IMG/VR virus record: IMGVR_UViG_3300025767_000124
Coordinates: 1 to 23,863 of that record
Direction: 5' to 3' (one strand)
Length of the DNA stretch: 23,863 bases
DNA from: a virus
Of this stretch, positions 1 through 23,863 are shown piece after piece; position 1 is the stretch's first letter, and each line of letters begins with the position of its first letter. Position numbers and translations under genes: made by a program. Under the pieces are notes generated by a model. It saw nothing but the letters and a program-made list of their open reading frames with translations. It was not told the DNA's origin and did not search any database.

Positions 1-3000
1 ACTCGCTCCACCCATTGCAATAGCAAAACTATCAGCTATCTGAGTAGGTAAGAAACCCATTTTAAGTAAAGAAGACAAAACAGCTTTTGTTTTATTTGTA
101 GCGGTTTCCGCAGCGTTAGCAATGTCATCGGCATTTACATCATTCTTTAATCCTGATCTTCTTTGCTTTAAGAAATCAGAGTTAAACAACATTGCGAAGT
201 CACTCCAGAATTGTTTTTGATTAGCAAATGCTTTAGCCGCCGCCATAGGATTGTTATCTCCCCAGTTTATAAAGTTAACAATAGATAACGTTTGTAATAA
301 TGCTGATCTAGTGTTAAAAAACATTATTGTACCAACTGAATCATTAACCCAGTTCATAAACTTGTTTGTTAACTTGTTAGCGCCTGAAGGCCTGTTTCTA
401 CCGGTCTTCATTCTATAAAGCATATCTTCCATTGCCTCTACATAATTATCACCAAATGCCGCTCTAAGTTTATTAAAGTTTTCTTTACTAAATATAGCGT
501 CAGCATTAGTTTGCCAAGCTTCTAAGAATTCAGCTCGCTTAGTGGTATTAATCATGTTGATAGCATCCGTGGTAATTGTACCAGCCAGCCATTCGTTTTG
601 CGGCTCTGGGTATCCTTCTAAAACAGAATCCATTTGGTTAGCAAAATCTAAAAGATCTTTATTAGCTTGCACTACGGCAATCAATTCTTTTTTATCCGTT
701 TCAGATAAACCATTAATATCATAGCCATTTTTTGCCCATAAGTAAACTCTTACGGCAACTTCGTTTGTAAATCCAGTCTCATTAACTTTCTTCAATCCAG
801 AAGGAACGTTTTTAATATCCTTCTTAAGTTGTTTAACGATCCCTGTGACGTTTTGCTTGTAGCTTTCGAATTCACGCATAGCTTTAGCAAACGGATCGAA
901 TAAGGCTTCTTTAAACCAAGCCTGCTGAGCCTCGCCTGCTTTACCTTTGCCTGTAAGTTTATATAATAAACCTGCAAAATCATCCGCGGATGGTGGAATA
1001 AAGAATTTATACTTACCTTTCCCCTGCCCTCTTACTTTTCCTTTAGCTTCTGAAAAAGTTTTAAATGATTCAATACCTGTAACATCTTCTATTATGTTAT
1101 TAAACTCTTTATTTAAGTTTTTAGAAAATTGCACTTTAGCTTGGTGAACTTTAGACTTAACATCCGCTTGCTCTAATACTTCTTGAACGGCTTTAACGTT
1201 TTTATATGCGTCATCTGCAAAGTAAAAATCGTTATACCCTTCAGCAACTTTTCCAACGACCCACTTGGCTTTAGCAATAGCAGTACCATCACCTAATCCA
1301 AATATGTTTTCTAATTTAATATCTAAGCCAATACCTTTTAAAAACTCGTGTATAGCATATTTTGAATTCGCTGGCCGAGCAGTTAAAATGTATACATTGC
1401 TATTTCCGAATTTTTTATTACGGGCAATTGCTTTATCAAACATAGGGCCTTTAGCTCCTTTCATTACTTTGCTAAATTCGCTAAAATCAAATTCCGCGCC
1501 TTGTTTTTCAAGGTTATCAGCTTGTAGTGCAAACTCGGTTGCATTGAGTTTTCCCTTTGTACCATCCGATAATGTATATAAAACATTGCTTTTGGTTGTA
1601 GCTAATGTGTCGTCAAAGTCCCAAACGCTAATACCTTTAACAGGTGCGTTGGGACGATTAACCATCGCTTTAGCTTTGTTTACTGTTTTACTAAATTCAA
1701 TTGTACTTTCAGGTGTTGAGTTAGAAAAGCCAGCCTTCTTAAAATTGCTGTTTATAGATTCTGAGCTTATTATGGACATAGTAGATTCTGCCACTAAAGC
1801 GTTGGAAGATTCTGTAGTCAATTGAGAATACATTTTAAGTATAAATGTCATCTTGCCATTAGCCTTAGGCGCTCCTTTTTTTAACCATGCTCTTGTAAAT
1901 AAATCGCCTTTGAATTTAGGTATAGGTAACCCTGCTATGTTTTCGCCTACATGGAATGTTCCAATATCTAGGAACCCTATATAATTAGTATCTTTACCAT
2001 TATATATAGTCTCTATCATTTTTTCATTCAATCCGTTTATGTAGGTTACAGATTTTTTATACAAACTATCTCCTAGATTTAACTCTTCATATTGTTTAGG
2101 AGTTAATTCTATATAGCCTGACTCAGTTATATAATTTTCGCCAGGATAGTTTTTAGCCATAAATTTATCGACTTTATTAACAAAGTCTTGCAATGGTTTG
2201 CTATTTTTAATAGCATCCATAACTATTTTATTACTTTCCTCCCCTATATCACGAGTAGTCTCCATCGTAGAGATATCGTTGTAATTCTTTATGTTTGTGC
2301 TGGTTATTCTAGATGTCTTGTTGTATTTTATTTCAAATATATACTCTTTTTGTTTATGCTTAATAATAATATCTGCTCCTGTATCACCTGATTTATTACC
2401 GGGTCTTTTAGAAACAACTTTAACACCTGGTGTTTTAGAAAAAACATCCCAAACAACTTGCTCAGCTAATACCCCATTAGTGTATTCTTGCTTTGCTTTA
2501 AAAGAATCAAGTATATCAGTATAATCTTTAAGAGTGTTTTTCCAAACTTTTTCCCAAAGTTCTGGGCCAAGCTTTTCTTCTATAGTTTTTAATGATTTAT
2601 TATATTTTGTTCTAGTAGGGCTTATTGTCTGAGATATAATTTGCGCGGCTAATTGAGCCATTGCTATAACACCGTCACTTTTATACCCTAATTTTTTAGA
2701 AACAGCAGCTTTATCATCTTTGCTTAAGCTTTTTGAAAACTGTATAATATCAAATCCTGCTTTTTCACCTTTGTATCTATCTATTTGTGACTCTAGTTCG
2801 TTTAACTGAGCCTCAATAGCTATAGAATTTACTACGTCTAAAGATTGCGCAGGAGCTAAGTCTTTAATAGAATTAAGCTGAGCTAAATTTTCAGGCGTTG
2901 CATAATCAGCAACAATTTGCTTAGTCAATGGTTCAAGTATTTCTCTAAACAATTGCTTTTGTCTTTCTAATACCGCTGATTTTTTTCCTTTAACAAAATA

Positions 3001-6000
3001 AGTTAAGAAGGTTTTCTTGTCGATTGGTTTGATTCTAAAAACAGGATTACCTTCTGCGGTTAATTCCCTGCCAACTTTTTCTATAGGGAATAACTTGCCA
3101 TAGCTCTTCTTAATGCTTTTAATTGGTAAAGCTTTAGTTACTATGTCAAAGGTTTTTGGATCGTTTAGAAAGTCTATATATGCCCCAGGAATTACCGCAT
3201 TAGGGTATACGCCTGTAATAGCACCAACCTTTTTCAGTAACTTCTTAAATAGCTGCTTATTAACATAATTTTCAAGCCACGAAACAATGTAGGTTTCTCT
3301 ACCTTTTTTTACGCTAACTGTTTCTGACAATGTGCCTTTTTGCACTCTTACCCTTATTTCTTTTTCTAAGTCAGATTTAATGTCATCTATTAAATCCTGA
3401 TCTACTATGTCTAGCTCATCGAAAGTACGCTGGCCTCTTTCCACTGTGCCGCTGCGATCAATAGACTGAGTATCTTTAGTATCAACTACTCCTTTAGCAT
3501 CGTCTAAATTAGATGTAAATTCAGTATTAGCTTCCTTAAACATTAAAGACTGCCTAGTTTGTACTATCTTTTTTACATAACCAGCTAAATCTTTGTTTTT
3601 AGAAGGATCATAAGTACGCAATGCGCTAATTACCTCAGCTCTTAGTATAGATAAAGCATCTTGAAATTCTAAAGCCTCTGTTGCAAATTGCTTAAACTTT
3701 TGTTGAACAATAGTGTTTATGTATCCTTCAAATAATGGCACTAGCTTTCTTTCTAAAGAAGCTGGTAGGGGTTTGTTTGATTTGTACTCCGTTCTTTCAA
3801 CACCCTCCACGCCTTCGTTGTAAGTGTCCATGATCTTTTTAGACTTTGGATCTCTAGGACCTAAGTCTGTTGTCCTTGTTGGCTTATCAGGTCTTTCTTT
3901 TTTAACTTTTGGCTTTTCTTTAGGCTTTGGAGTAGGTTTAACAACGGCTTGTGGGTTTGCCGCAGCCTCTTCTGCAGCGTCTAATGCTGCTTCAGCTGCT
4001 TCTAGGTTAGCTTCAAATCTAGGGTCGTTTGGGTCTGCGTTTTGTGCATTTTCATAATCAAGCTCAGCCTCTTCTACAGTCTTAGAAAATTCAATTCCGT
4101 CTTGTAACCCAGCATCGCTTAAGTCAACATCTTTAAGAGCTGCTGCTGCTTTTGATGTTAATTTACCTTGTTCGGCACTTTGGTCAAATTCTTTAATAAA
4201 ATTATATACATCTTTACCGGACTCAAAGCTTATATTAGTATAGCCTACTGGTTTAAAAACATTTACTATAGCGTCTCCTATTTTTTCAAATGTTGTTTTA
4301 TCGTAGTTAATTTGTTTTTTACGCAAGGCATCAGAAAACACGGTAACATACTCTGTATTGTATGCTTTACCTGTATACCCTCTTTTTTTCATCTCAGCAT
4401 CAACAAACCTTCTTTGAGACGATGTCATGGCTCTTCTAAATTGCTTAACAATTTTACCTTGCTCTTTAGCGTTACCCACTAATTTATTAAGCACCGGGTG
4501 TAAAACTTCGTGCATACCTGCATTGATAGATCCTGTTTTTCTAGCAATTTCTTTATCTATGACTAATTTATTACCAATTACAAAAGCAGATATATCTTTT
4601 CCTTCTTTCCTTTCTTTATAGTAAGCTTCTCTATTTTCAGGACTTATTTTATCGCTATTAATTAAAGCTTCTACTTCTGCTGTGGTTTTAACGTCTAATT
4701 CTAACCCTTTTTCTTCAGCAATAGCTTCTGCAGTTTTAATATTTTTTTTCAGCTCCATATCGATTAAGCCTTTTCTAGCTTTATCGTATTCAGCTTGGAA
4801 ACCAGAAGAAGCCGCTTCATACTGTGACTGCGATATTTCACCTCTTCTTAATTTTTTATTTAGATCTGTTACTTTATATGCAGCCGCGTCGGCTAAATCA
4901 GTTAAGCTTTCTATTTCGCTTATTTGCTCATCAGTAAGGTTGTTATATATATCGTTACCTTTTCTTACCGCATCCGCTATTTCAGACTCTTTTTCGTTTA
5001 TTTTAATTTGTATTCCCTCTTGAACACTTTTATCGGTAGATGTGTTAAACTGTTTTCTCAGCTGTGCTAATTGATTAATATCTTTATCAATCTTGTCTCC
5101 ATCAACAACACTTCTTATAGTGTTCATGCTTTTAGCAGAATATGTACCTGCTACCATTCCACCACCACCAATAAATCCTTGAAGGCCTGCTTCTAAGCCT
5201 TCTTGACTTGTAACAGCATCAATAATTGTTTTAAAAACTTCTGATTCATTTTCAGTACCAGCTACACTACCTAATTCTAAATTAACTTGGTCTGCTGCAT
5301 GCTGTAATATTTCTGTTGTAAATTCAGTTGCCCCTGTAGAAAGCATTCTCATAGTGTTTCTAGCCCCAGTATTGTATATAAGCTTTTCAGCTAAATACTT
5401 GCTACCCATGCCTAAAATACCTGTGGTACCCGTTCCTTTAACAGCTCCTTTTGCTCCTTTTAAAACAGTGCCCAGCCCAATGTATTCTAGAGCAGTAGAC
5501 ACAGTACCCATGCCAATAGGTATGGCATTGTCAGCTTCCCCGCTTAAAACTAAATCGTTAAAGCTTACCCCTAAATTTTCCGCTTTAAGCTTGTTGAATT
5601 CTACATAATTTTCAGCAACATAATCCATAAAAAACCCCGAGCCTAAGGTACCAGCTCCATATCCAATGCTACCTAACATACCTGTTACAGCATTTACCGC
5701 GCCCGCAAATACTCCACCAATATCACCCTCCTTAACGCTTTCAATTATGCCTAAAGTCTGCTTTGTCTCACCCTTCTCTTTTTCATAAGCTTTTATAGCT
5801 TCAAAAGTCGCCTTACTGCCAATACCTTCAGTAAGCCATTCGTTATCTTTATTCCTTTCTACGTAGGCATCGACCTCGTCTTGCCCAAATAGAGAAGCGT
5901 AAACTGTATTAGTAGCTATATCTAAAGAAGAATTTGCTCCTTCGTTGGTAAACCAAAACTCCCCTACATCTGATAATTGCTCGCCTAAATTAGAAAAAGA

Positions 6001-6288
6001 ATTTTTAATCGATTGCCAAGCCGATAAACGTTCTTCCGATTTGGATCCCGTATCTTTTTGGCTTGACTCCACAGCTGGATCCGCGCTTGCAGAGTCGTTT
6101 GTCTTTACTGGATCACCACTAAAGAATTGATTACTAAAGTCACTGAATGATTTTGTATAATCGCCAGAGCCTTTTAATGCACCGTATAGTTTTTCTTGAC
6201 CCTCTGTAGATCCAAACTGTGTTTGGAAATCTTCAAAAGACTTAGTATATTTACCTTGCTCAGAAAGTGAGTTAAATAATTTTTCCAT
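1..6288 (-). CDS. Giant multidomain virion/ejection protein (partial, C-terminus off the window)
   Basis: The frame is open without a stop from an ATG at 6288 to base 1, giving 2096 codons, so the C-terminus is missing. Domains seen, in residues: tandem repeat 2-55; Gly-rich hydrophobic segments about 190-216, 257-296 and 365-382; helical region 400-520; zincin-like HEVLH 592-596; Pro/Lys linker 779-816; sigma-70 region 2-like 840-916; PD-(D/E)XK-like E1276, D1306, E1319-x-K1321; HAD motifs DFDDT 1557-1561, ILTARP 1634-1639 and FADD 1690-1693; and a long C-terminal domain from 1719, including IMFFNTRSALLQ near 1988-1999, which I recognise as typical of giant 'large polyvalent' phage proteins. 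It starts 4 bases after the preceding stop and is last in the ejection-protein trio, where T7 places gp16. It is inferred to be packaged in the capsid and injected. The catalytic assignments rest on motifs only. Size and the A-rich leader support this start. Confidence 0.85.
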   Translation of the reverse strand, partial: MEKLFNSLSEQGKYTKSFEDFQTQFGSTEGQEKLYGALKGSGDYTKSFSDFSNQFFSGDPVKTNDSASADPAVESSQKDTGSKSEERLSAWQSIKNSFSNLGEQLSDVGEFWFTNEGANSSLDIATNTVYASLFGQDEVDAYVERNKDNEWLTEGIGSKATFEAIKAYEKEKGETKQTLGIIESVKEGDIGGVFAGAVNAVTGMLGSIGYGAGTLGSGFFMDYVAENYVEFNKLKAENLGVSFNDLVLSGEADNAIPIGMGTVSTALEYIGLGTVLKGAKGAVKGTGTTGILGMGSKYLAEKLIYNTGARNTMRMLSTGATEFTTEILQHAADQVNLELGSVAGTENESEVFKTIIDAVTSQEGLEAGLQGFIGGGGMVAGTYSAKSMNTIRSVVDGDKIDKDINQLAQLRKQFNTSTDKSVQEGIQIKINEKESEIADAVRKGNDIYNNLTDEQISEIESLTDLADAAAYKVTDLNKKLRRGEISQSQYEAASSGFQAEYDKARKGLIDMELKKNIKTAEAIAEEKGLELDVKTTAEVEALINSDKISPENREAYYKERKEGKDISAFVIGNKLVIDKEIARKTGSINAGMHEVLHPVLNKLVGNAKEQGKIVKQFRRAMTSSQRRFVDAEMKKRGYTGKAYNTEYVTVFSDALRKKQINYDKTTFEKIGDAIVNVFKPVGYTNISFESGKDVYNFIKEFDQSAEQGKLTSKAAAALKDVDLSDAGLQDGIEFSKTVEEAELDYENAQNADPNDPRFEANLEAAEAALDAAEEAAANPQAVVKPTPKPKEKPKVKKERPDKPTRTTDLGPRDPKSKKIMDTYNEGVEGVERTEYKSNKPLPASLERKLVPLFEGYINTIVQQKFKQFATEALEFQDALSILRAEVISALRTYDPSKNKDLAGYVKKIVQTRQSLMFKEANTEFTSNLDDAKGVVDTKDTQSIDRSGTVERGQRTFDELDIVDQDLIDDIKSDLEKEIRVRVQKGTLSETVSVKKGRETYIVSWLENYVNKQLFKKLLKKVGAITGVYPNAVIPGAYIDFLNDPKTFDIVTKALPIKSIKKSYGKLFPIEKVGRELTAEGNPVFRIKPIDKKTFLTYFVKGKKSAVLERQKQLFREILEPLTKQIVADYATPENLAQLNSIKDLAPAQSLDVVNSIAIEAQLNELESQIDRYKGEKAGFDIIQFSKSLSKDDKAAVSKKLGYKSDGVIAMAQLAAQIISQTISPTRTKYNKSLKTIEEKLGPELWEKVWKNTLKDYTDILDSFKAKQEYTNGVLAEQVVWDVFSKTPGVKVVSKRPGNKSGDTGADIIIKHKQKEYIFEIKYNKTSRITSTNIKNYNDISTMETTRDIGEESNKIVMDAIKNSKPLQDFVNKVDKFMAKNYPGENYITESGYIELTPKQYEELNLGDSLYKKSVTYINGLNEKMIETIYNGKDTNYIGFLDIGTFHVGENIAGLPIPKFKGDLFTRAWLKKGAPKANGKMTFILKMYSQLTTESSNALVAESTMSIISSESINSNFKKAGFSNSTPESTIEFSKTVNKAKAMVNRPNAPVKGISVWDFDDTLATTKSNVLYTLSDGTKGKLNATEFALQADNLEKQGAEFDFSEFSKVMKGAKGPMFDKAIARNKKFGNSNVYILTARPANSKYAIHEFLKGIGLDIKLENIFGLGDGTAIAKAKWVVGKVAEGYNDFYFADDAYKNVKAVQEVLEQADVKSKVHQAKVQFSKNLNKEFNNIIEDVTGIESFKTFSEAKGKVRGQGKGKYKFFIPPSADDFAGLLYKLTGKGKAGEAQQAWFKEALFDPFAKAMREFESYKQNVTGIVKQLKKDIKNVPSGLKKVNETGFTNEVAVRVYLWAKNGYDINGLSETDKKELIAVVQANKDLLDFANQMDSVLEGYPEPQNEWLAGTITTDAINMINTTKRAEFLEAWQTNADAIFSKENFNKLRAAFGDNYVEAMEDMLYRMKTGRNRPSGANKLTNKFMNWVNDSVGTIMFFNTRSALLQTLSIVNFINWGDNNPMAAAKAFANQKQFWSDFAMLFNSDFLKQRRSGLKNDVNADDIANAAETATNKTKAVLSSLLKMGFLPTQIADSFAIAMGGAS
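1144..1641 (-). other. HAD-superfamily phosphatase-like domain in the giant protein
   Basis: Residues about 1550-1715. All four HAD motifs are visible: motif I V-W-D-F-D-D-T-L (nucleophile D1557, acid/base D1559), motif II Y-I-L-T-A-R-P (T1636), a motif III lysine at K1673 or K1675, and motif IV F-Y-F-A-D-D (D1692, D1693). The active site is intact, so a phosphohydrolase acting on a nucleotide, a nucleic-acid end or a small metabolite is plausible. The specificity cannot be read from sequence. Confidence 0.7.
2254..2496 (-). other. PD-(D/E)XK nuclease-like domain in the giant protein
   Basis: Residues about 1265-1345. The pattern fits the PD-(D/E)XK core: a helix with N-G-V-L-A-E-Q (E1276), then D-T-G-A-D-I-I-I (D1306 at the start of a strand), then E-Y-I-F-E-I-K-Y (E1319-I-K1321) on the next strand, followed by a Lys/Ser/Thr-rich stretch. 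Spacing between D and ExK is 12 residues, normal for the superfamily. This suggests a DNA endonuclease or DNA-binding module; substrate unknown. Confidence 0.6.
3541..3771 (-). other. Sigma-70 region 2-like segment in the giant protein
   Basis: Residues about 840-916 follow a Pro/Lys-rich linker (779-816). The stretch I-S-A-L-R-T-Y-D-P-S-K-N-K-D-L-A-G-Y-V (887-905) parallels the sigma-70 region 2.1-2.3 pattern A-x3-(F/Y)-D-P-x2-G-x2-(F/L)-x-(T/G)-Y, with a helical L-V-x-L-F-x2-Y segment ahead of it. No region 4 (-35-binding helix-turn-helix) was recognised nearby. The resemblance is by eye and may be a structural echo only. Confidence 0.35.
4309..4671 (-). other. Zincin-like metallopeptidase domain (HExxH) in the giant protein
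   Basis: Residues about 540-660. The motif G-M-H-E-V-L-H-P at 590-597 places H592, E593 and H596 as an HExxH zinc site in a predicted helix. E646, in T-E-Y-V-T-V-F about 50 residues later, is a candidate third ligand. Zincin-like domains are known in giant polyvalent phage proteins. The fold is not proven and the third ligand is a guess. Confidence 0.5.
5134..5730 (-). other. Gly/Ala-rich hydrophobic segments of the giant protein
   Basis: Residues about 187-385 contain three Gly-rich, weakly hydrophobic stretches (about 190-216, 257-296 and 365-382) separated by charged helices. Their Gly content is high for ordinary transmembrane helices. They resemble the amphipathic, membrane-active parts of podovirus ejection proteins, which would fit passage through or insertion into the host envelope. 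This is a composition-based inference. Confidence 0.4.
6124..6285 (-). repeat. N-terminal tandem 30-residue repeat in the giant protein
   Basis: Residues 2-25 and 32-55 align with a 30-residue period. Both carry E-K-L-(F/Y)-x2-L at the start and Y-T-K-S-F-x-D-F-x2-Q-F at the end. The repeat is at protein level; the DNA has diverged. Its position at the extreme N-terminus suggests a docking or packaging tag that binds another virion protein. That role is inference. Confidence 0.75.
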
Positions 6289-10524: not shown

Positions 10525-13500
10525 TTACGATGGTCCACAACATTCTAAATATTCGAAGGTTATAGCTTGGTCTTGTCCTCCAGCAGGGTCAAAGACGGTG
10601 TTTGTGATAGTGCATGGGTTTACTAAAGTATTTGGGAGTTTGTCAGAAGATTCATAATTCCTAACTTCAAAAGTTCCATAATTTCCATTGCCGTTGTTTT
10701 GCGTATTTTGCAGAAATATTGTATTTGTACCGCCCAACAAAATAGACGGGTCAAAATGATATGTTACCATACCAGCCAATGGGCAAGCAAAGTCTGCACT
10801 ACCTATTTGTACATTTGTATTAGTATCTCCAATAAACACAGAGCCAATTTGAGCGTCCTGATCCAAGTCAAGTGCACCTATATATGTTCCATTTAAAAAT
10901 ACATCAAAATTATCATCCCTTGATGCATTTTCATTACATACTTGCAATACAAATGTTTTGTCTGGGCAATCTGGAACAGCATCTGGTTCTATATTTACAA
11001 CTACCTCATCAAAAGCATTATCGGGATCAGTAACTCTTAATGTATACGTTGTGTCCCCAATTGGCACTGTGCCTGTTATGCTAGCTACTCCTGTAAAGCC
11101 TTCTCCTGTAGTTGTTAATGTTAACTCTAAAGGTAAATCGCCTGAAGACCATACTAAATCCGTTGCTGGATTATGATCGGGATCTGTTGCTGTTATATTT
11201 AGCCAGTTATATGGGTCGCCTTCTGTAAAAGGGCCTGGAGGCAATAAGCTCTCATCTATATTTGGCGGCTCTACTACTTTTGCAATTTCTACTGTAACTA
11301 AAGCAGGCTCACTATATCTAGTCCCGTTAAATGCTCTATATGTAAAACTTCCGCCGCTGCCGTTATAGTTTAAAACATTAGGCGTAAAAGTAATCTGGTC
11401 ATTTACTATGCTACTTAAAGCGCCGTTAATAACATCGTCGCTTACTACCTCGAATGTTAAGGATAACCCTTGAGGATCAGTTCCTGTCAATATTAAGGAA
11501 GCACACGAAGTGCAATCTTCTTGTACCGTATATGCTTTAATATCCGCGGTAGGTGGTTGTATATACACTGCACAGCTAGGGTCGCCAAAGACTCTTACGT
11601 TAAATAAGCTTACACCAGGCCCCTCTATAGAAGTGGCTCTACCTATTCCCTGTACTGAAAAATCGTTTGTACTAATATTATCAAGAGTAGTATTTTTGCC
11701 TTTTATGTAATTAAAGTATTTACCTTCTTTATTTAAAAACTCAGGTATTGAGCCTTTTTCTAAATTAGTTTCTGCATTGTATACCCACCATCCAGGATTA
11801 GTTGTTACTCCATTGGGGGTTGGCCCTCCATTTGACTTTATAGCTTCAACTTGAGCTAAAGAATAATCAATACCTACATAGCCCGGAGAGTTAATGCTGT
11901 ATACATTTTCTCTTGATTTGCTGCCTGTATAATTAATAGTTTTAAAACCTTTTACTAAATTAAATTCTTCATTAAAAACAAAAGTTAGAGAGCTATCATA
12001 TTGAATACCGTAAAAGTTATTATACAAAGGGTTTTTGCCATGCTCATATATTAAGCCGTTTTTAAAAGAATACAACTTTGTGTCAATTGATATACCATTT
12101 TCAGGTGTATATGATTTTCGGCTGGACCATCCGTTGGAGGATTCGTCAAAAGAAATTGTAACAAAGTTTCCAAATTTATCAGACCACTGAGGAGCTTGCT
12201 TAGACAAAGTTAAATTATAAGTACCTGTGCTATTGTCGTAAAATCCAAAAATATTATTATTTAACGGTAAATTGTCTTGGAAAAAATCGTCCATTCCGTA
12301 ATTACTAATTTCAGTTACTCCATCATTAGATAATCTAAGAACCTTGCCTTTAGAGTTGTCGGTAAAATATACTCTATATGCGTAATTAGCAAAAGACTCT
12401 GGATTTTGACCAATCCCGAACATACCAAATGAAGCAGGTATAATTGCTTGACCTAATACGTTTGTTGAAGCAGTTAATTGTTGATTGCCGTTAGCATTAT
12501 ATATAGCATCTTTGTCTGCTAAAATTTTAACAACTTTATCTTCACAAAAAGCTAATAAATCTGTTTCTCTTGCAAATAATTTTTGAACAGGCCCGCTTTG
12601 AGGGTCTAAAGTTTTAGTTATTGGTTCACCTTGAATAAATTGATTCAAATCATTTATACCAGATGTAGTGTTAAATATGCCTGAAAATATTAAAGTATTT
12701 GTTAAGTTTTCTTCTTTATAAGGCGTATCTAAAACCGCATTAGCTTTAGTACCCGTATTTATATAAGGTGCATTAAAATCATCTCTAATTCTATTTGACT
12801 CAACGCCATTTCCAAAAGAATAGCAATTAAACCATGGGCTATCATATTGATTGTTAAACCCGGAAATTGGTAAAGCGTCGGAAATTTCGTAATAAATATC
12901 CAAGTCAGCTCTTTCAGTTGGTTCTGTTTCAAAAATAGCAGGCTCAGAGGATGAAATCTCTACAACGTCCGCTGGTTTCAATACGTCAATAGTTACAAAA
13001 GCATCTGTATTAGGTGCTACAAGTGGAGGAAAACCACTAGCTCCTACAAAAACTTGATTACCATTCACAAAAACCGGGCCGTTGCCATTATCCTGAGAAG
13101 CTCTAAATATTTGCCAAGGAGATATTGAGGCCTCTAGTGGTCTATCTAGTCTAGTATAATATCTTATGTAAGAAGAGCCGCTGGTTTGAGTAAACTGGTG
13201 AAGATACTTTATTTCATAAACTGAATCTGGATGCGTAGAAAATCTTATTTTAGCACCTGTCTTATAGGCTTTTTGAAAGTTAGCAGAGCCTCGACCTGTT
13301 AATTTTCTTTCAAAAACAAAATCCCAATACTCCCCAGGCTGATATGGAATATTCCAGATACTTCCAAAGTTACCGCTATTGTTAGGGTGGCCAGAATTAA
13401 GGCCTCCATATACCTTACTAGTATTAAAATCTAATCTAGTTCCAGAGCCAATTTGCGTTCCCGATTCGTTTTGAAGAGGCCCTCCACCTCCTGAAAAAAT

Positions 13501-16152
13501 TGTGTATCGATCAACGTCGTAACTTCTGCCCACTACAGTTGTCTCTAAAGGTATTAACTCTTCATCAGACACGAAGTTGTCCATCAATGTAGGTGTTTTT
13601 TGTAGTCTTATAAAAAATCTTCCTTCAAATTGACCTTTACCTAAAGTCTCAACTTCATCTGAAATCTCTATAGTATTAGCTTCAGGCGATACCAGTAAAG
13701 AAGCCGGGTCAGAAGGATCTTCATATAAAAAATCTATATCTGTTGTAAAAGGTGTAGATATTGAAACCCTAAGTTCGTTAGCTCCTGCTGGATCTTGCTC
13801 TACTTGAGATATTTCATAATATTGACTTTTACTGATGCCATCTGTAAAACGTATTTTATTACCCGTAACCCAGTATTCCAGCTCTGCAGTAGTTACCCCA
13901 CTGCTACCGACGCTTCCTTCAATTAAGAAAACACTGTAGCCAGCAACTGGAGTAGCTCCTGGTTGCCGCGTCTCTTGAACATTACCTGAACCAAACTGCT
14001 GATCAAACGTGTAATTAGTTTGATATATAGCTTGATTCTTTTTAACAAGTTCAGCTGGCGCTTCATTTTTTTTTGATAAAATTTTAAATTTATTGTTAGG
14101 ATAATCTTTTACCGCTACAGGAGCCCCATCTTTTTTCTTTAAAATGATAAAATCTCCTTCTGCAACCTTGTTTGTTTCCGCTGAAGGAACAGAAATCCAA
14201 ACACTCTCGCCATCTTCAGACTGGTATAGTCGGTCTGCAATTATATTATAATATTCAGCAGCAGGGTCTTTTATGAAAATTTTAAAGCTATCAAACATTT
14301 CAGAACCATCTGGGTTCTTAGGGCTCGGTGATTCAATTTTTAATTTTAAAGTGTTGGCAGTGTCAGAAACGTCAGCCTGTAATGACAAAACTCCAGAGGG
14401 ATCCGTAAAAACGGGGGTTTCTCTACCGTATGTATCTTTAAAAACAACACCTAATTGATAAGTTCTTAAAGATTTAATAGACTTGTTTGGGGAATTAACT
14501 AATCCGACAGGGGTTTGACTAACCAGTGTACTTGAGCTGTCAAATTTTAAAAATGGTTCCGCATTATAGTTTTGAAGATAATTACCGTATATTATTCTAT
14601 TAGATATAGCTTCTTGAGCCTTTGCTTTCCGTGGCACATTATCCCAGGGTCTTAATATTTGGTTCGAAGGTAGAAGCGAATATATAAGCTCGCTTACTAC
14701 TTCAAAAACTGTGCCTAAATTAGTGCTAGTTATAACAACATCTGTTGAGGAAGCAGGAGATAAAGAACCTTCCGCTGCTATTAAAGTTATTGTCTGCGTA
14801 GAAAAAACAGATAGTTCTTGCTCATTTTTTTTCGTGTTAGTAAAAGCAAAAGCTACAGTATTAGCGCTGTTATTTGTTATTTCATATTCTACGTAATTTA
14901 TCTCAAGATCACTAGGAGATAAGGTATCCACTTTATACACAGGAAGAGCATTGTCTTGCTTATATAATATATCCAACTCTACAACATCAGCTGGCAAAGG
15001 AGAATCAAAGCCTCCTAGTACAATTCTTTTAACAGAGTTAATCATTCCTGAATTATAGCCATTTGCGGCAGTATAGTCAAATTCGCCAGGTAAAAATGCT
15101 ACTTCAGAGAAAGGAGAAAAAGGGGAATATTGATTATTTTCATATTTATATCTATATGCAAATCGCGGCAGCGTTAACTCAAAAAGATTTTTTTCACCTG
15201 TAGCCTCCACTTCATAATCGAATGAACCTGAAATTAGCTCAGCAGTTCCGCTTTGTAAAACACCATTAAGTAGGGTGCCGCCTAAATCCATAGATACTAC
15301 GCTAATACTAAAAAGGTAAACATCGGGGTTTCCTTCGTCATCCACAGGTTCATACCCTTCGCTACTAGGGGTATCACATTTGAAATTCAAAGTTTCACCC
15401 GGCTCCACATTTATAGGAGAACTTAAATTTATAGAAACAGAGGTGCCAATAGGTATTGCCGCGCCTATAGACCCGTTGGGAGCTACCCCGTCTGTAAAAT
15501 TATATATTGCGTTAGTTGAAGTAGATCCAGCACCTAAATCAGTGCTTAAAGTTAACTGAGGCTGATTTAAAGGGGCGGGCTTAATTACTACTATATCTCT
15601 TTCAATAAAATCTCGGCCATATATAACCGAATGAGTAGCAAAATTTGCTGTAGAATTTATCCAACTTTTTATATTTAATACCTTAGGTTCTTTTTGGTTG
15701 TCGGTCCAAAAAAGTAAATCCTCTATGATATTTATGCCTGTTATTAAATAGTCTTTAGAGAAATTGAGTATACCCTGGGTGTCAACTAAAATAGGTCTTA
15801 TTAAGTCGCTATTCTTGTCATATTCAGCAATTGCGCTTATGTTATTTGAGGCTATAAACCAGTATATTTTTTCGCTAACATTATCTGCTATAGAACCTAT
15901 ACAAGTGGAGTTAGGCATTGAATCACTTATATAGCCAGCTGACCATTCAGTATACAAGCCTGTAGATTCGTTAAAGGATTCATATTTTAATTCTAAATTC
16001 CCTTTTACGTTTTCAATAGCCCCAACGTCACTACCTTCTGAATTGGACACGTTAATATTTAAAGCATCTCTATATTCGCCATTAGGCACTAATCTTTCGT
16101 CAAGGTCTTGGTTCATTTTGCCTTTTACAAATGTGCGTACAAACTCTGCCAT
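10525..16152 (-). CDS. Giant tail nozzle/muzzle-type ('stabilization') protein with C-terminal Ig/cadherin-like domains
   Basis: 1875 aa. The N-terminus F-V-K-G-K-M-N-Q-D-L-D-E-R-L-V-P-N-G-E-Y-R-D-A-L-N-I matches, from memory, the opening of crAss-like 'stabilization' or muzzle proteins and related T7 gp12-like nozzle proteins. Residues 1-1520 are beta-rich and acidic with few cysteines, consistent with a propeller-type nozzle body. From about 1535 three domains follow: a cadherin-like/tandem-95-type domain (L-T-G-T-D-P-Q-G, F-T-P-N-x-L-N-Y-N-G and F-T-Y-R-A-F-N-G), a second Ig/cadherin-like domain (about 1629-1725, I-T-A-T-D-P-D-H and L-R-V-T-D-P-D-N) and a cysteine-containing terminal domain (1728-1875) ending C-C-G-P-S. 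It follows the 303-aa connector by 3 bases. It probably forms the distal tail and carries adhesin-like tips. Confidence 0.82.
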   Translation of the reverse strand: MAEFVRTFVKGKMNQDLDERLVPNGEYRDALNINVSNSEGSDVGAIENVKGNLELKYESFNESTGLYTEWSAGYISDSMPNSTCIGSIADNVSEKIYWFIASNNISAIAEYDKNSDLIRPILVDTQGILNFSKDYLITGINIIEDLLFWTDNQKEPKVLNIKSWINSTANFATHSVIYGRDFIERDIVVIKPAPLNQPQLTLSTDLGAGSTSTNAIYNFTDGVAPNGSIGAAIPIGTSVSINLSSPINVEPGETLNFKCDTPSSEGYEPVDDEGNPDVYLFSISVVSMDLGGTLLNGVLQSGTAELISGSFDYEVEATGEKNLFELTLPRFAYRYKYENNQYSPFSPFSEVAFLPGEFDYTAANGYNSGMINSVKRIVLGGFDSPLPADVVELDILYKQDNALPVYKVDTLSPSDLEINYVEYEITNNSANTVAFAFTNTKKNEQELSVFSTQTITLIAAEGSLSPASSTDVVITSTNLGTVFEVVSELIYSLLPSNQILRPWDNVPRKAKAQEAISNRIIYGNYLQNYNAEPFLKFDSSSTLVSQTPVGLVNSPNKSIKSLRTYQLGVVFKDTYGRETPVFTDPSGVLSLQADVSDTANTLKLKIESPSPKNPDGSEMFDSFKIFIKDPAAEYYNIIADRLYQSEDGESVWISVPSAETNKVAEGDFIILKKKDGAPVAVKDYPNNKFKILSKKNEAPAELVKKNQAIYQTNYTFDQQFGSGNVQETRQPGATPVAGYSVFLIEGSVGSSGVTTAELEYWVTGNKIRFTDGISKSQYYEISQVEQDPAGANELRVSISTPFTTDIDFLYEDPSDPASLLVSPEANTIEISDEVETLGKGQFEGRFFIRLQKTPTLMDNFVSDEELIPLETTVVGRSYDVDRYTIFSGGGGPLQNESGTQIGSGTRLDFNTSKVYGGLNSGHPNNSGNFGSIWNIPYQPGEYWDFVFERKLTGRGSANFQKAYKTGAKIRFSTHPDSVYEIKYLHQFTQTSGSSYIRYYTRLDRPLEASISPWQIFRASQDNGNGPVFVNGNQVFVGASGFPPLVAPNTDAFVTIDVLKPADVVEISSSEPAIFETEPTERADLDIYYEISDALPISGFNNQYDSPWFNCYSFGNGVESNRIRDDFNAPYINTGTKANAVLDTPYKEENLTNTLIFSGIFNTTSGINDLNQFIQGEPITKTLDPQSGPVQKLFARETDLLAFCEDKVVKILADKDAIYNANGNQQLTASTNVLGQAIIPASFGMFGIGQNPESFANYAYRVYFTDNSKGKVLRLSNDGVTEISNYGMDDFFQDNLPLNNNIFGFYDNSTGTYNLTLSKQAPQWSDKFGNFVTISFDESSNGWSSRKSYTPENGISIDTKLYSFKNGLIYEHGKNPLYNNFYGIQYDSSLTFVFNEEFNLVKGFKTINYTGSKSRENVYSINSPGYVGIDYSLAQVEAIKSNGGPTPNGVTTNPGWWVYNAETNLEKGSIPEFLNKEGKYFNYIKGKNTTLDNISTNDFSVQGIGRATSIEGPGVSLFNVRVFGDPSCAVYIQPPTADIKAYTVQEDCTSCASLILTGTDPQGLSLTFEVVSDDVINGALSSIVNDQITFTPNVLNYNGSGGSFTYRAFNGTRYSEPALVTVEIAKVVEPPNIDESLLPPGPFTEGDPYNWLNITATDPDHNPATDLVWSSGDLPLELTLTTTGEGFTGVASITGTVPIGDTTYTLRVTDPDNAFDEVVVNIEPDAVPDCPDKTFVLQVCNENASRDDNFDVFLNGTYIGALDLDQDAQIGSVFIGDTNTNVQIGSADFACPLAGMVTYHFDPSILLGGTNTIFLQNTQNNGNGNYGTFEVRNYESSDKLPNTLVNPCTITNTVFDPAGGQDQAITFEYLECCGPS

Positions 16153-18778: not shown

Positions 18779-20206
18779 CTATGCTGTTGCTTTTTTCAAC
18801 AATACAAAGTTGTTAGCGCCTTGTACACATAAACATCTTTCTGATAAGAAATGAACGTTCATTGCATCTTCGTCGCTTGTGTAGTTTCCACCAACGGATC
18901 CAGTAATCCAAGACTTCATTTTACGATCGTCAGCTTCAGAAGCTCTATAACGAATGTGTAAGAATGGTCGTGAAATATTTTTTCCCAATTGCTGGTCGTA
19001 AACTGTAGAAGTTCCTGCTGGCACAATAACGCCCTCAACATCTCCAACTAATCCACGAGTGGTAGCATCGTTTAAGTATTTCCAATCTGTCTTATAGAAG
19101 TCGTAAGATCCTCTGCGGAATCCACTAAACCCTAAGTTTAACGCCATATCTTCAGAGTTATCAAATACACCGTAAGATGTACCTCCAGCTCCATAAGAAT
19201 TTTGTTGCGCTAGCATATTGTCAATACCTAAAGAAGTTGCACGATCTAAGAAAAGCATGTTTTCTTCAATTGCACCCTGCTTGTCAAGTTCCTGTAGGAT
19301 AGCATCGAAATCTTCTAATCCACCTGCAGCTCCAAAGTTAGAGTCTGTGTAAACAAGACCTCTGTTTTCAAGAGCAGCAAAAAGTCCATCAGAACCTGTA
19401 AGCTCAGTACCGCCACCTAATCCAGCTGCTGGAGTAATTGCCGTAGCTGCTTTTTCAGCTTCAATCATAGACATTTCTAATTGATCTTCAAAACGAATAC
19501 GTGCTTCGTGTTCAGATTTTAAGTACCATAAGTAACCAGATGTTCCAGCTTCAGTAGTAACTTCAACCCATCCAATTTGAGCAGCATCAGAACCGCTTAC
19601 GTTGTATTTATCTCTAAGGATAATTGGCTTGTTGTTAAACTGCTCGAAAGCTGCGTCAACAGAAGTACCTGCGTTAGAAGTTCCTTTCGCATATTCAGAA
19701 CCGTATACAAATACTTTACCAGCATCGTGAGCAGTGATAGTTGCAGCGGCATAACCTACTACTGTTAATTCTACAGCACCTGCTACTGGGGCAGCTACCG
19801 CTTGAACATAAGCTTTTTCTACAACTAATCCGTCAGCTGAAGCAACTACAATCGTAGCTCCTGGGCCAATAACGTTTTGGTTAACCCCTCCTGCGCCTGC
19901 TGGAATTGTTACTGTAGTTGTAGTTGTTACTACTGGGTCATATGCAATGTGTAGTCTTCCTTGCTCAGACCATACTACTTGGTCAGAAGCCATAGGCATT
20001 TCTGCTCCTACCATACGTAAAAATCCAGAGATCGTACGGTTTCCGTAACGCTCTACTTCTTTCTCATATACTTCTGGCAAGAACTGTTGTGTAAAATCTA
20101 AATCTGCAAGAGTTAGATAGTTATCGTTAAATAATGTTTGTGTTGGGCGTGGCGTTAAGTGCGCTAATGCGCCTGCGCTACCCGTAAATGAACCTGCTGC
20201 GGCCAT
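18779..20206 (-). CDS. Major capsid protein (HK97-fold, crAss-like type)
   Basis: 475 aa. The N-terminal part contains L-T-P-R-P-T-Q-T-L-F-N-D and F-L-P-E-V-Y-E-K-E-V-E-R-Y-G-N-R-T-I-S-G-F-L, followed by W-S-E-Q-G-R-L-H. Residues about 92-172 are a Thr/Val/Ala/Gly-rich beta insertion. The C-terminus has H-I-R-Y-R-A-S-E-A-D-D-R-K-M-K-S-W-I-T and R-C-L-C-V-Q-G-A-N-N-F. These blocks resemble the capsid proteins of crAss-like and related marine phages as I recall them. It follows a scaffold-like gene and a portal gene, the standard head order, and has a hairpin terminator behind it. There is no obvious N-terminal propeptide, so a separate scaffold is expected. The codons are less AT-rich than in neighbouring genes, as is usual for a highly expressed gene. 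Confidence 0.9.
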   Translation of the reverse strand: MAAAGSFTGSAGALAHLTPRPTQTLFNDNYLTLADLDFTQQFLPEVYEKEVERYGNRTISGFLRMVGAEMPMASDQVVWSEQGRLHIAYDPVVTTTTTVTIPAGAGGVNQNVIGPGATIVVASADGLVVEKAYVQAVAAPVAGAVELTVVGYAAATITAHDAGKVFVYGSEYAKGTSNAGTSVDAAFEQFNNKPIILRDKYNVSGSDAAQIGWVEVTTEAGTSGYLWYLKSEHEARIRFEDQLEMSMIEAEKAATAITPAAGLGGGTELTGSDGLFAALENRGLVYTDSNFGAAGGLEDFDAILQELDKQGAIEENMLFLDRATSLGIDNMLAQQNSYGAGGTSYGVFDNSEDMALNLGFSGFRRGSYDFYKTDWKYLNDATTRGLVGDVEGVIVPAGTSTVYDQQLGKNISRPFLHIRYRASEADDRKMKSWITGSVGGNYTSDEDAMNVHFLSERCLCVQGANNFVLLKKATA

Positions 20207-21451: not shown

Positions 21452-23863
21452 TTACCTAGGCTCGAAGGAACCTAAGTTAAAGTTACCGTTAAGTATATCG
21501 TTTCCGCTGGATTCGAAATTTTTTGGCGGTAAATCGTTTTGTCTTTGGTTTATTAATTCACTTTGCTGTGTAGCTTGAATTTTTGAGCGATCGTCTTTGC
21601 GATCTTCTTTTTCTTTAATCTCAGACTTTCTGCCCTGTACTTCCAGGCCCTTTAGTTGCATGTTCATTTCAAACTCCAGCTGCATTAATTCTTTCTTTAG
21701 TGCCGCTTCCTGCATTAATTTTTGTTGGTCTATTTGCGCTTTGGCTTGCTCTAGTGATATTTTTTGTTGTATTAAAGCTTGTTGTTTCTGCACTTCTGAT
21801 TGTGCTGCAACTTGTGTTGCCTGGGCATTTGCCTCTGCTTGGGCTTGCATATTTTCTTGTTGCATTTTCTGATCTCGTAGTTGCTTTTCAGCTCTTCGTA
21901 TTTTTAGCAATTGATTAGCTAGTTTAAGATTTTTAACCTCACGGAGATCGATAGCATCGGATAAATCAATCATACCTGCCGAAACTGCAGCTTGTATATT
22001 GTTTTCTAAAATTGCTCTTTCTTCTTCATCCGGCTGTAATTCAATAAATATTCCAAAATCATAAAGATACAAGTCGCTCATTTCCTCAAGAACAGCTACG
22101 TTTTGATTTCCTATCTTATGTATAAAAGCTTCTCTTGTTGGAGAATATTCTAGTATATCAGATATTCTTAATGATAACCCTTCACACAAGTCTGCTGTTA
22201 AAAATAAACTTCCATCTAATATGTGTCTTGTAGCTACATTAGAATTAGCAGCTGCCAACTTTTGAACCCCAACTAATGCTCTAGAATCTGGTGTGCTTCC
22301 GTCTCTAGCTTCATTTAATCCGGTTACGTCACGGATCATTTGTAGGTAATAATTGTAGTTAGCAATTAAGCTTTGCATTTTTTGACCCCCTGCTCCTGTT
22401 GATATTTCTTGAATAGGAACTTTCCCTGGATTCATATCTCCATCTTGAGTAAATGATCTACCAATTACAGAACCTGTTTGAAAAAACATATTTAAAGCTT
22501 CTTGCGGATTGTAATTTGTTCCGTTACCTAAATCAACTTCAGCTAATCCGTCCGCATCAAGATATACACCGTCTGGCACCATTCTTGACATTACTTGTTG
22601 TAATTTTAAATGTGTCAACTGAATCATATCTGCAAATCCAGTTATTCTACTTACTATAGACTCTATGCGCCCTTTATACATTCTTGGAGCAACAATGCTA
22701 TAATTCATTTTAACTTTAGTATAATCACTCTTAGGGCGGATCATATTAGTAGCTAATTCCCATTTAAGCATTCTACCGCCTAATACCTTAACTCCTTCAT
22801 ACAGCACTTCTAAAGACTGAGATAATTTTGCAATTCCGTATTCCGCTAAAATTTCTTCTGGTGGATTAAATTGATCGTCTTTAGGTATTATCTTAACTGC
22901 GCCTGTTGCCGTTTCTTTAACTTTGTAAACTTCATTAGCAAATGTTTTGTAATTAAAGTACAAAATTTGAACCGTATTAGAATCATCTTGGTCATAATTT
23001 GTAAGAGTTCTATCGTAAAAACCATTATTGTTATAAGACTGACTTGATATTTCCGTAAGATCCTCGTCAGTTAACCAAGGGAATTCTTTTTTAAGTTCAT
23101 TAAGATGAACAGATTTTACTTCGCCAACATAGTATACATCATCAAAATATGGAGAATCTGTGTAAGACCAAACCAAATTAACAGGATCAACATAATCAAC
23201 TTTCGCGCCCTCAGCTTTATTGAACGTGTTTTTAACCGCGCCAATACCTATAGTAGTTAAATCATAATTACATCTACGCTTAATTAAATCGTATTTATTA
23301 CCATCTAACAATACATTTAAAGCTTGCTCTTCCGCTAACTCAACTTGTTGCTTGTAGCTTAGTTGCATATGCAGGTCTAACTCTTCTTTATTTTTAGGAA
23401 GCGTTTCTGGATTTGTTTCAAACAAATTAACGCCAAATTCAGCTTGAGCAAATTCATTCAAATCTTTTGTTTGCATATCTCTTATGATAGCCTCCATATA
23501 TTTTGTACGTTTTTCAACGCCATATGGATCTTGCGAGTATGCTTTTATATCGAATTGTCTATCTGAAATACCATTAACAACTATATCAACAAACTTTGGT
23601 ATAATTGGCACTGGCTTCCAATCTAAATTTAAATATGATAAATCGCCATTAATAGATAATTCATCTTTATATTTCTGTATTCCCTGTTCTCCTCTTGCGT
23701 ATAATCTTAAATTGTGAAAAGTGTTTTGATTACTTTTAAACCTATTTAAGCCGTTATCGCTACTAAACCATTCGTTTTCTATAGCCCTACCGATGGTTGT
23801 ACCATACTCGATTGACATTTTTTCTGCATCGCTCGCTATTTGACTCGGAAAATAACTTGTTAC
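21452..23863 (-). CDS. Portal protein (5' end probably beyond the window)
   Basis: At least 788 aa from the ATG at 23818. The same frame stays open for 15 more codons to the window edge and reads V-T-S-Y-F-P-S-Q-I-A-S-D-A-E-K, which looks like protein and not leader, so the true start is probably outside. Blocks seen (numbered from that ATG): A-I-E-N-E-W-F-S-S (12-20), W-K-P-V-P-I-I-P-K-F-V-D-I-V-V-N-G (67-83), a central region with M-I-R-D-V-T-G-L-N-E-A-R-D-G (a portal crown/stem-like motif), then a long Gln-rich coiled coil (about 635-740) and an Asn/Pro-rich tail. This matches crAss-like and marine podovirus portals. The dodecameric portal would be the DNA channel and head-assembly nucleus. 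It is followed by the scaffold gene after 32 bases. Confidence 0.88.
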   Translation of the reverse strand, partial: VTSYFPSQIASDAEKMSIEYGTTIGRAIENEWFSSDNGLNRFKSNQNTFHNLRLYARGEQGIQKYKDELSINGDLSYLNLDWKPVPIIPKFVDIVVNGISDRQFDIKAYSQDPYGVEKRTKYMEAIIRDMQTKDLNEFAQAEFGVNLFETNPETLPKNKEELDLHMQLSYKQQVELAEEQALNVLLDGNKYDLIKRRCNYDLTTIGIGAVKNTFNKAEGAKVDYVDPVNLVWSYTDSPYFDDVYYVGEVKSVHLNELKKEFPWLTDEDLTEISSQSYNNNGFYDRTLTNYDQDDSNTVQILYFNYKTFANEVYKVKETATGAVKIIPKDDQFNPPEEILAEYGIAKLSQSLEVLYEGVKVLGGRMLKWELATNMIRPKSDYTKVKMNYSIVAPRMYKGRIESIVSRITGFADMIQLTHLKLQQVMSRMVPDGVYLDADGLAEVDLGNGTNYNPQEALNMFFQTGSVIGRSFTQDGDMNPGKVPIQEISTGAGGQKMQSLIANYNYYLQMIRDVTGLNEARDGSTPDSRALVGVQKLAAANSNVATRHILDGSLFLTADLCEGLSLRISDILEYSPTREAFIHKIGNQNVAVLEEMSDLYLYDFGIFIELQPDEEERAILENNIQAAVSAGMIDLSDAIDLREVKNLKLANQLLKIRRAEKQLRDQKMQQENMQAQAEANAQATQVAAQSEVQKQQALIQQKISLEQAKAQIDQQKLMQEAALKKELMQLEFEMNMQLKGLEVQGRKSEIKEKEDRKDDRSKIQATQQSELINQRQNDLPPKNFESSGNDILNGNFNLGSFEPR

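Follow-up and report, generated by a model that had tools for sequence, protein, structure and literature searches.

The late genes of an uncultured marine phage pose the question of how one very long protein with several enzyme-like parts is put together and what it might do. The window, that is the whole stretch of DNA which we analysed, comprises 23,863 bases, and its minus strand holds every large gene, from the portal (21452-23818) through the giant protein (1-6288). The frame of the giant starts with ATG and continues as a single minus-strand frame for 2,096 codons (residues 1-2096) with no stop before the contig end, where its 3′ end is lost; the uninterrupted frame of at least 2096 codons noticed in a sequence-only reading of this DNA is thus borne out. 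Since the close full-length relatives measure about 2,170-2,480 aa (~2,400 in the close clade; the longest of all has 3,366 aa), the window giant lacks about 370 C-terminal residues.

The portal (PHROG 6547) is the first complete gene in the late gene block of the giant, and the gene order is portal, scaffold-type protein, major capsid-type protein (18779-20206, minus strand, PHROG 13704), further genes and finally the giant. PHROG matches on this strand are to portal, capsid and virion structural proteins, so the giant lies among late virion genes, which is the setting expected of a polyvalent protein. The gene order also agrees with that of N4 and elemoA, in support of the earlier suggestion of an ejection-protein position. 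The block further encodes a protein of 1,875 aa (10525-16152), which is devoid of clusters of the FSK motif described below. The nearest annotated phages are those of Flavobacterium, Cellulophaga, Maribacter and Tenacibaculum; several Bacteroidota MAGs also contain relatives of the core. Four relatives (L091, L092, L094 and L099), placed in MAGs of Aliivibrio, Caldiserica, Maricaulis and Woesearchaeota, are probably mis-binned phage contigs.

One scan of IMG/VR with one query retrieved 564 stretches encoding relatives of the giant, of which 78 loci were kept. In GenBank phages (50,697 records) tblastn found no match, neither with the giant nor with the core of one relative. Pfam returned nothing relevant for the whole giant and for 18 full-length members, an LPD match being absent; the alignments of five modules, run as profiles against the PDB, likewise gave nothing relevant. 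The giants (2,170-3,366 aa) are mosaic: similarity breaks off and resumes at recurring positions. In residues of the window giant, the modules follow each other as two repeats (1-82), a hydrophobic and Gly part (186-400), a zincin (455-733), a sigma-2-like segment with a domain termed 'ERGQ' (835-1184), a nuclease (1230-1480), a HAD phosphatase (1540-1718) and a C-terminal core from 1722 onwards. All window positions given for these modules are on the minus strand.

The N-terminal two-repeat module (6043-6288) is common to the giant of phage ctfjg026. The segments in the Gly/hydrophobic module (5089-5733) had been described as membrane-active; this was overstated, as only one TM-like window, of 19 residues and starting at 190, exceeds KD 1.3, while the module as such is indeed conserved. 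The 'ERGQ' domain (residues 950-1180; 2749-3441) is conserved in the alignment of relatives. The core (residues 1722-2096; 1-1125) runs past the contig and is found in 75 proteins, more than any other module. A polyvalent-type C-terminal domain had been expected here. The core is the most widely shared part, but its assignment as LPD38 was rejected: PF18857 is silent in 5 relatives, while it scores the giant of Panino at 1.8e-5.

Which of the enzyme-like parts are real? The zincin-like metallopeptidase module (4090-4926), delimited by conservation, a structure model and profile matches, carries the zinc-binding motif HEVLH at residues 593-597 (4498-4512) and a third ligand, E646 (4351-4353). 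Across 34 zincin segments, with a mean column identity of 24%, solely H593, E594, H597 and E646 are invariant. The AlphaFold model (pLDDT 85.6, pTM 0.80) has strands at 76-80, 112-117 and 120-124 and then helices at 136-149 and 186-202. As predicted, the HExxH helix follows the three-stranded sheet and the Glu ligand lies on the next helix, the arrangement which characterizes a zincin; the same layout is described for polyvalent MPTases in passages of Iyer et al. (2017, PMC5512222). With the model Foldseek found no fold match in the PDB, the listing being dominated by long helices; among viral models the single strong match was an uncultured-virus protein (E = 1.6e-6). Judged by conservation, the giant carries a real zincin domain. 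In two full-length giants (L054 and L057) the zincin segment is recognisable (E = 1e-8 to 1e-9) and HExxH is gone, so that these are possibly pseudo-proteases by their sequence. The full-length giant of L144 likewise has no HExxH.

The PD-(D/E)XK-type nuclease module (1849-2601) has G1272, E1276, D1306 and E1319-x-K1321 invariant in 12 sequences with identities down to 17-26%. The model that contains it is weaker (whole-model pLDDT 62.7, pTM 0.37), and Foldseek points to archaeal Hjc Holliday-junction resolvases (probability 0.28-0.72, E about 1-2). Residues and predicted elements are consistent with a helix bearing the Glu, a strand bearing the Asp and a strand bearing ExK in an alpha-beta-beta-beta-alpha-beta core, and by conservation the nuclease domain is real. 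The same holds for the HAD phosphatase (1135-1671). Its motifs I (DxDxT), II (T), III (K) and IV (DD) are found in 13 of 13 sequences, with D1557, F1558, D1559, D1560, T1561, T1636, R1638, K1673, D1692 and D1693 invariant. The module is PHROG 415-like: this polynucleotide kinase profile matches at E = 1.5e-4 and recognises 9 of 18 members. Toward a polynucleotide 3′-phosphatase of the PNK type, the observations are these PHROG 415 matches and a PDB profile search with the HAD alignment that gave no hit. As a side observation, the HAD module of L019 (residues ~1726-1824), L024, L025 and L034 carries after motif I an inserted domain whose motifs are ART-like (VFHGG...YFSEE...A..Y in L019) and whose borders are without FSK joints. 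In the giant of L037 a stand-alone ART-like module (DIYHGG...YFSEDKAQAAEYA; residues ~1615-1760) occupies part of the cargo region and replaces the HAD module. At L006:15193-15198 the giant is broken into two ORFs within the HAD domain, by a frameshift or an assembly error.

The signatures HEVLH, E...D...ExK and DFDDT/ILTARP/FADD, from which three enzyme domains had been proposed, are therefore real, their catalytic residues being invariant in the relatives (34 zincin, 12 nuclease and 13 HAD sequences). With them the order of the domains and the polyvalent class stand: at least two disparate activities on one polypeptide mark such a protein, and conservation indicates zincin, PD-(D/E)XK and HAD. 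Overlooked in the sequence-only reading were the joint motif, the swapping of modules and the sigma-2-like domain.

How, then, are the modules joined? They swap at an FSK motif, and this motif is specific to the giants. FSK is the top over-represented tripeptide of the window giant (7 copies against 0.75 expected), and four of the seven copies, at 734, 1184, 1532 and 1721, coincide with module boundaries. On the minus strand the joints are IEFSKT at the border of the zincin and the sigma-2-like region (residues 732-737; 4078-4095), IQFSKS where the cargo slot begins (1182-1187; 2728-2745), IEFSKT where it ends (1530-1535; 1684-1701) and VQFSKN before the core (1719-1724; 1117-1134), whose S1722 is invariant in 18 diverse relatives. 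In the first of them DSSP assigns IEFSK (732-736) of the zincin model to a beta strand. Including variants, the joint form is hydrophobic-[QKE]-F-S-[KRL]-[TSN]. For counting we defined a strict motif, [ILV][QK]-F-S-[KRL]-[TS], and a looser one, [QEKN]FS[KRL]. We counted 69 strict motifs in 80 giants (200,476 residues) and a single one in 448 other ORFs (237,043 residues). The density of the strict motif is thus ~80-fold higher in the giants than in the other ORFs of the same phages, of which composition alone explains at most about 5-fold.

The looser motif was compared with homology breakpoints derived independently of it. The 80 giants hold 198 sites, and 136 of these are no more than 12 residues away from a breakpoint, where 32.5 are expected; the reversed motif and the [QEKN]YS, IS and LS variants do not exceed expectation and [QEKN]F[ADGTN][KRL] reaches about twice that level. 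Because the 198-site counts are not independent, we collapsed the motif contexts and obtained 83 non-redundant ones, grouped in 56 clusters on the upstream and 60 on the downstream side. In these contexts, positions outside the search pattern are biased as well, toward I/V/L before and T/S after the motif; one of them, DFSEFSKV, is part of the HAD fold and no joint. The upstream end 'DRYKGE..FDIIQFS' precedes at least 8 unrelated downstream starts and therefore defines a cargo slot. Among 49 further giants, most of them of another clade, the short form is enriched 2-fold only, and 22 of its 44 sites again fall at breakpoints, with 3.4 expected and 0-2 for the controls. The serine of the HAD/core joint has a TCN codon in 25 sequences and an AGY codon in 20, and the same joint peptide is spelled by different codons in 65 distinct 12-mers. 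It follows from the switch between TCN and AGY that selection maintains the peptide rather than the DNA. In single relatives this joint varies, with H or Y for F and N, E or M for K.

Between the first two joints, residues 865-923 (3520-3696, minus strand) resemble sigma-70 region 2. The resemblance was first spotted by eye and the searches came afterwards. With the window segment Pfam ranks Sigma70_r2 at the top (E = 0.017-0.044, under the curated cut-off), and NCBIfam reports five families, all of them sigma factors, with SigE as the best (6.5e-4; under the curated cut-offs). Over 31 relatives the seven commonest NCBIfam families are again all sigma factors. Foldseek with a 740-residue model finds the sigma-2 domain of SigE (8b3z) in several chains (probability 0.92-0.99, E about 1-2, TM to target 0.65-0.72) and lists further sigma structures. 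In hhalign against E. coli sigma region 2 the segment scores E = 0.0054 and the other modules 0.096-0.82, on a poor sigma alignment with one of five rows misplaced. The AlphaFold pLDDT over the segment is about 52-70. Combined, these tests, none of which passes a strict threshold alone, make it rather likely that residues 865-923 have the sigma-2 fold. For sigma region 4, which serves -35 recognition, Pfam gave no hit at E = 0.01 in any of 18 full-length members. Of 12 relatives, 8 also have an ordinary sigma factor gene that stands alone and scores above the curated cut-off; in L108, L109 and L110 the gene for a sigma-70 factor of about 250 aa lies on the other strand, downstream of the giant. 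That the sigma-2 piece stems from this stand-alone factor of the phages was rejected, the similarity being weak (E = 0.04-0.16).

What could such a chain be for? While the domain identities follow from conservation, we infer packaging, injection, cleavage and the cargo targets. Its gene position makes it probable that the giant is carried in the virion and enters the host together with the DNA. We lean toward the reading that it is a polyvalent-type polyprotein of a Bacteroidota podovirus and that the FSK joints are cleavage sites of its zincin. An N-terminal targeting part and the zincin would precede exchangeable cargo, namely the sigma-2-like piece, the nuclease slot and the HAD phosphatase; a constant C-terminal core would close the chain and the motif would join the modules. 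In the capsid or after entry the zincin would cut at the motifs, between [QKE] and F with Phe at P1′, and thus free the modules. Cut at its joints the window giant would yield pieces of about 733, 450, 348, 189 and 680 residues. Nucleic acids of the host or of competitors could be the targets of the freed nuclease and phosphatase, and the sigma-2-like piece could bind the host RNA polymerase, so that early transcription would be redirected or blocked. A bulky hydrophobic residue at P1′ is a common preference of zincins, which fits a cut between [QKE] and F. MPTase domains are predicted to process polyvalent proteins in passages of Iyer et al. (2017, PMC5512222). This preference together with the published proposal favors cleavage at the joints.

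Alternatively, the FSK motif could be a conserved structural linker or module cap which is kept by recombinational exchange, with the giant working as an uncut chain. Such a cap would sit precisely where modules exchange, as the motif does, and the MPTase-bearing vRNAP of N4 is, in the account of PMC5512222, packaged uncleaved and functions without cleavage before packaging. Against cleavage also speaks that the giants of L054, L057 and L144, all without HExxH, still keep FSK-like sites and that the giants of elemoA and ctfjg026 have zincins and no FSK enrichment. However, the codon switches and the many distinct 12-mers disagree with a DNA-level recombination signal, and a flexible linker needs no recurrent F-S with a hydrophobic residue and Q/K before and K-T/S after it. 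We regard a linker or cap as the less likely reading. It is quite improbable that the giant is an ordinary polyvalent protein whose zincin targets host proteins, whose joints are cut, if ever, by host or other phage proteases and whose 'sigma-2' is a generic helical module: host-directed MPTases are indeed also proposed in passages of Iyer et al. (PMC5512222), the sigma matches are sub-threshold and the zincin is the sole protease considered for the cleavage, yet HExxH..E and the joint S1722 make up the small set of residues outside the core that never vary across 18 diverse full-length members, and sigma models dominate the independent searches.

Self-processing at the joints being the preferred reading, its full form is conceivable, though in our view somewhat short of an even chance: a virion-borne, self-cleaving polyprotein, whose motif is both cut site and mark for cargo exchange, would deliver, besides other tools, a stand-alone sigma region 2 against the host RNA polymerase before phage expression, at the place which the polymerase holds in N4. 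Polyvalent phage proteins are a known general kind; for the giant family with its sigma-2-like module, its exchangeable slot and its joint motif, the literature and databases searched show no precedent. We know of no defined cut site for zincin-processed polyvalent proteins, and our literature search found none. The joint motif makes zincin processing, predicted since 2017, testable by point mutation, and the giant family with its 564 stretches shows that a late phage protein can exchange its cargo in the manner of cassettes. If the proposal is true, the delivered sigma-like domain would be a route to early transcription control that is unreported as far as we found, a literature search for virion-delivered sigma factors having returned no paper, and this uncultured marine phage family would deliver a self-cutting multi-tool into bacteria.

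Among the closest known systems are the giants of the cultured Flavobacterium phage elemoA (QLF85284.1, annotated as 'structural protein') and of phage ctfjg026 (UOF82488.1). They share the gene position and, by profile matches, the zincin (E = 5.5e-9 and 2.2e-5, respectively), the latter giant also the N-terminal repeats (E = 1.6e-9). Unlike the window giant they have other cargo, no FSK enrichment and no convincing HAD, nuclease or core match. DdrB of phage P1 is similarly an MPTase-bearing head protein which is reported in PMC5512222 to be proteolytically processed, by cleavage before packaging; it has other domains, and the passages on it give no cut site. The vRNAP of Escherichia phage N4 (gp50) resembles the giant in its late-gene place (portal-side genes ... 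gp51, vRNAP), its giant size and its HExxH domain, although its zincin does not align to that of the window at a significant E. The window giant has no Pfam RNA polymerase domain and a sigma-2-like piece instead; a search for a T7-like RNA polymerase in 12 relatives gave no match, with controls equally silent, and is hence uninformative. With the polyvalent proteins of phages and conjugative elements, as portrayed in passages of PMC5512222, the giant has in common that a single late-gene polypeptide combines several enzyme domains of unrelated kinds, that the zincin is a hub, and that injection and processing are predicted. No Pfam model of their domains (LPD38, others) matches the window giant, the words 'sigma' and 'phosphatase' are absent from the main text of that paper, and no cleavage-site motif is seen in these passages. 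Unlike these polyvalent proteins, the present family swaps its cargo at a fixed peptide motif.
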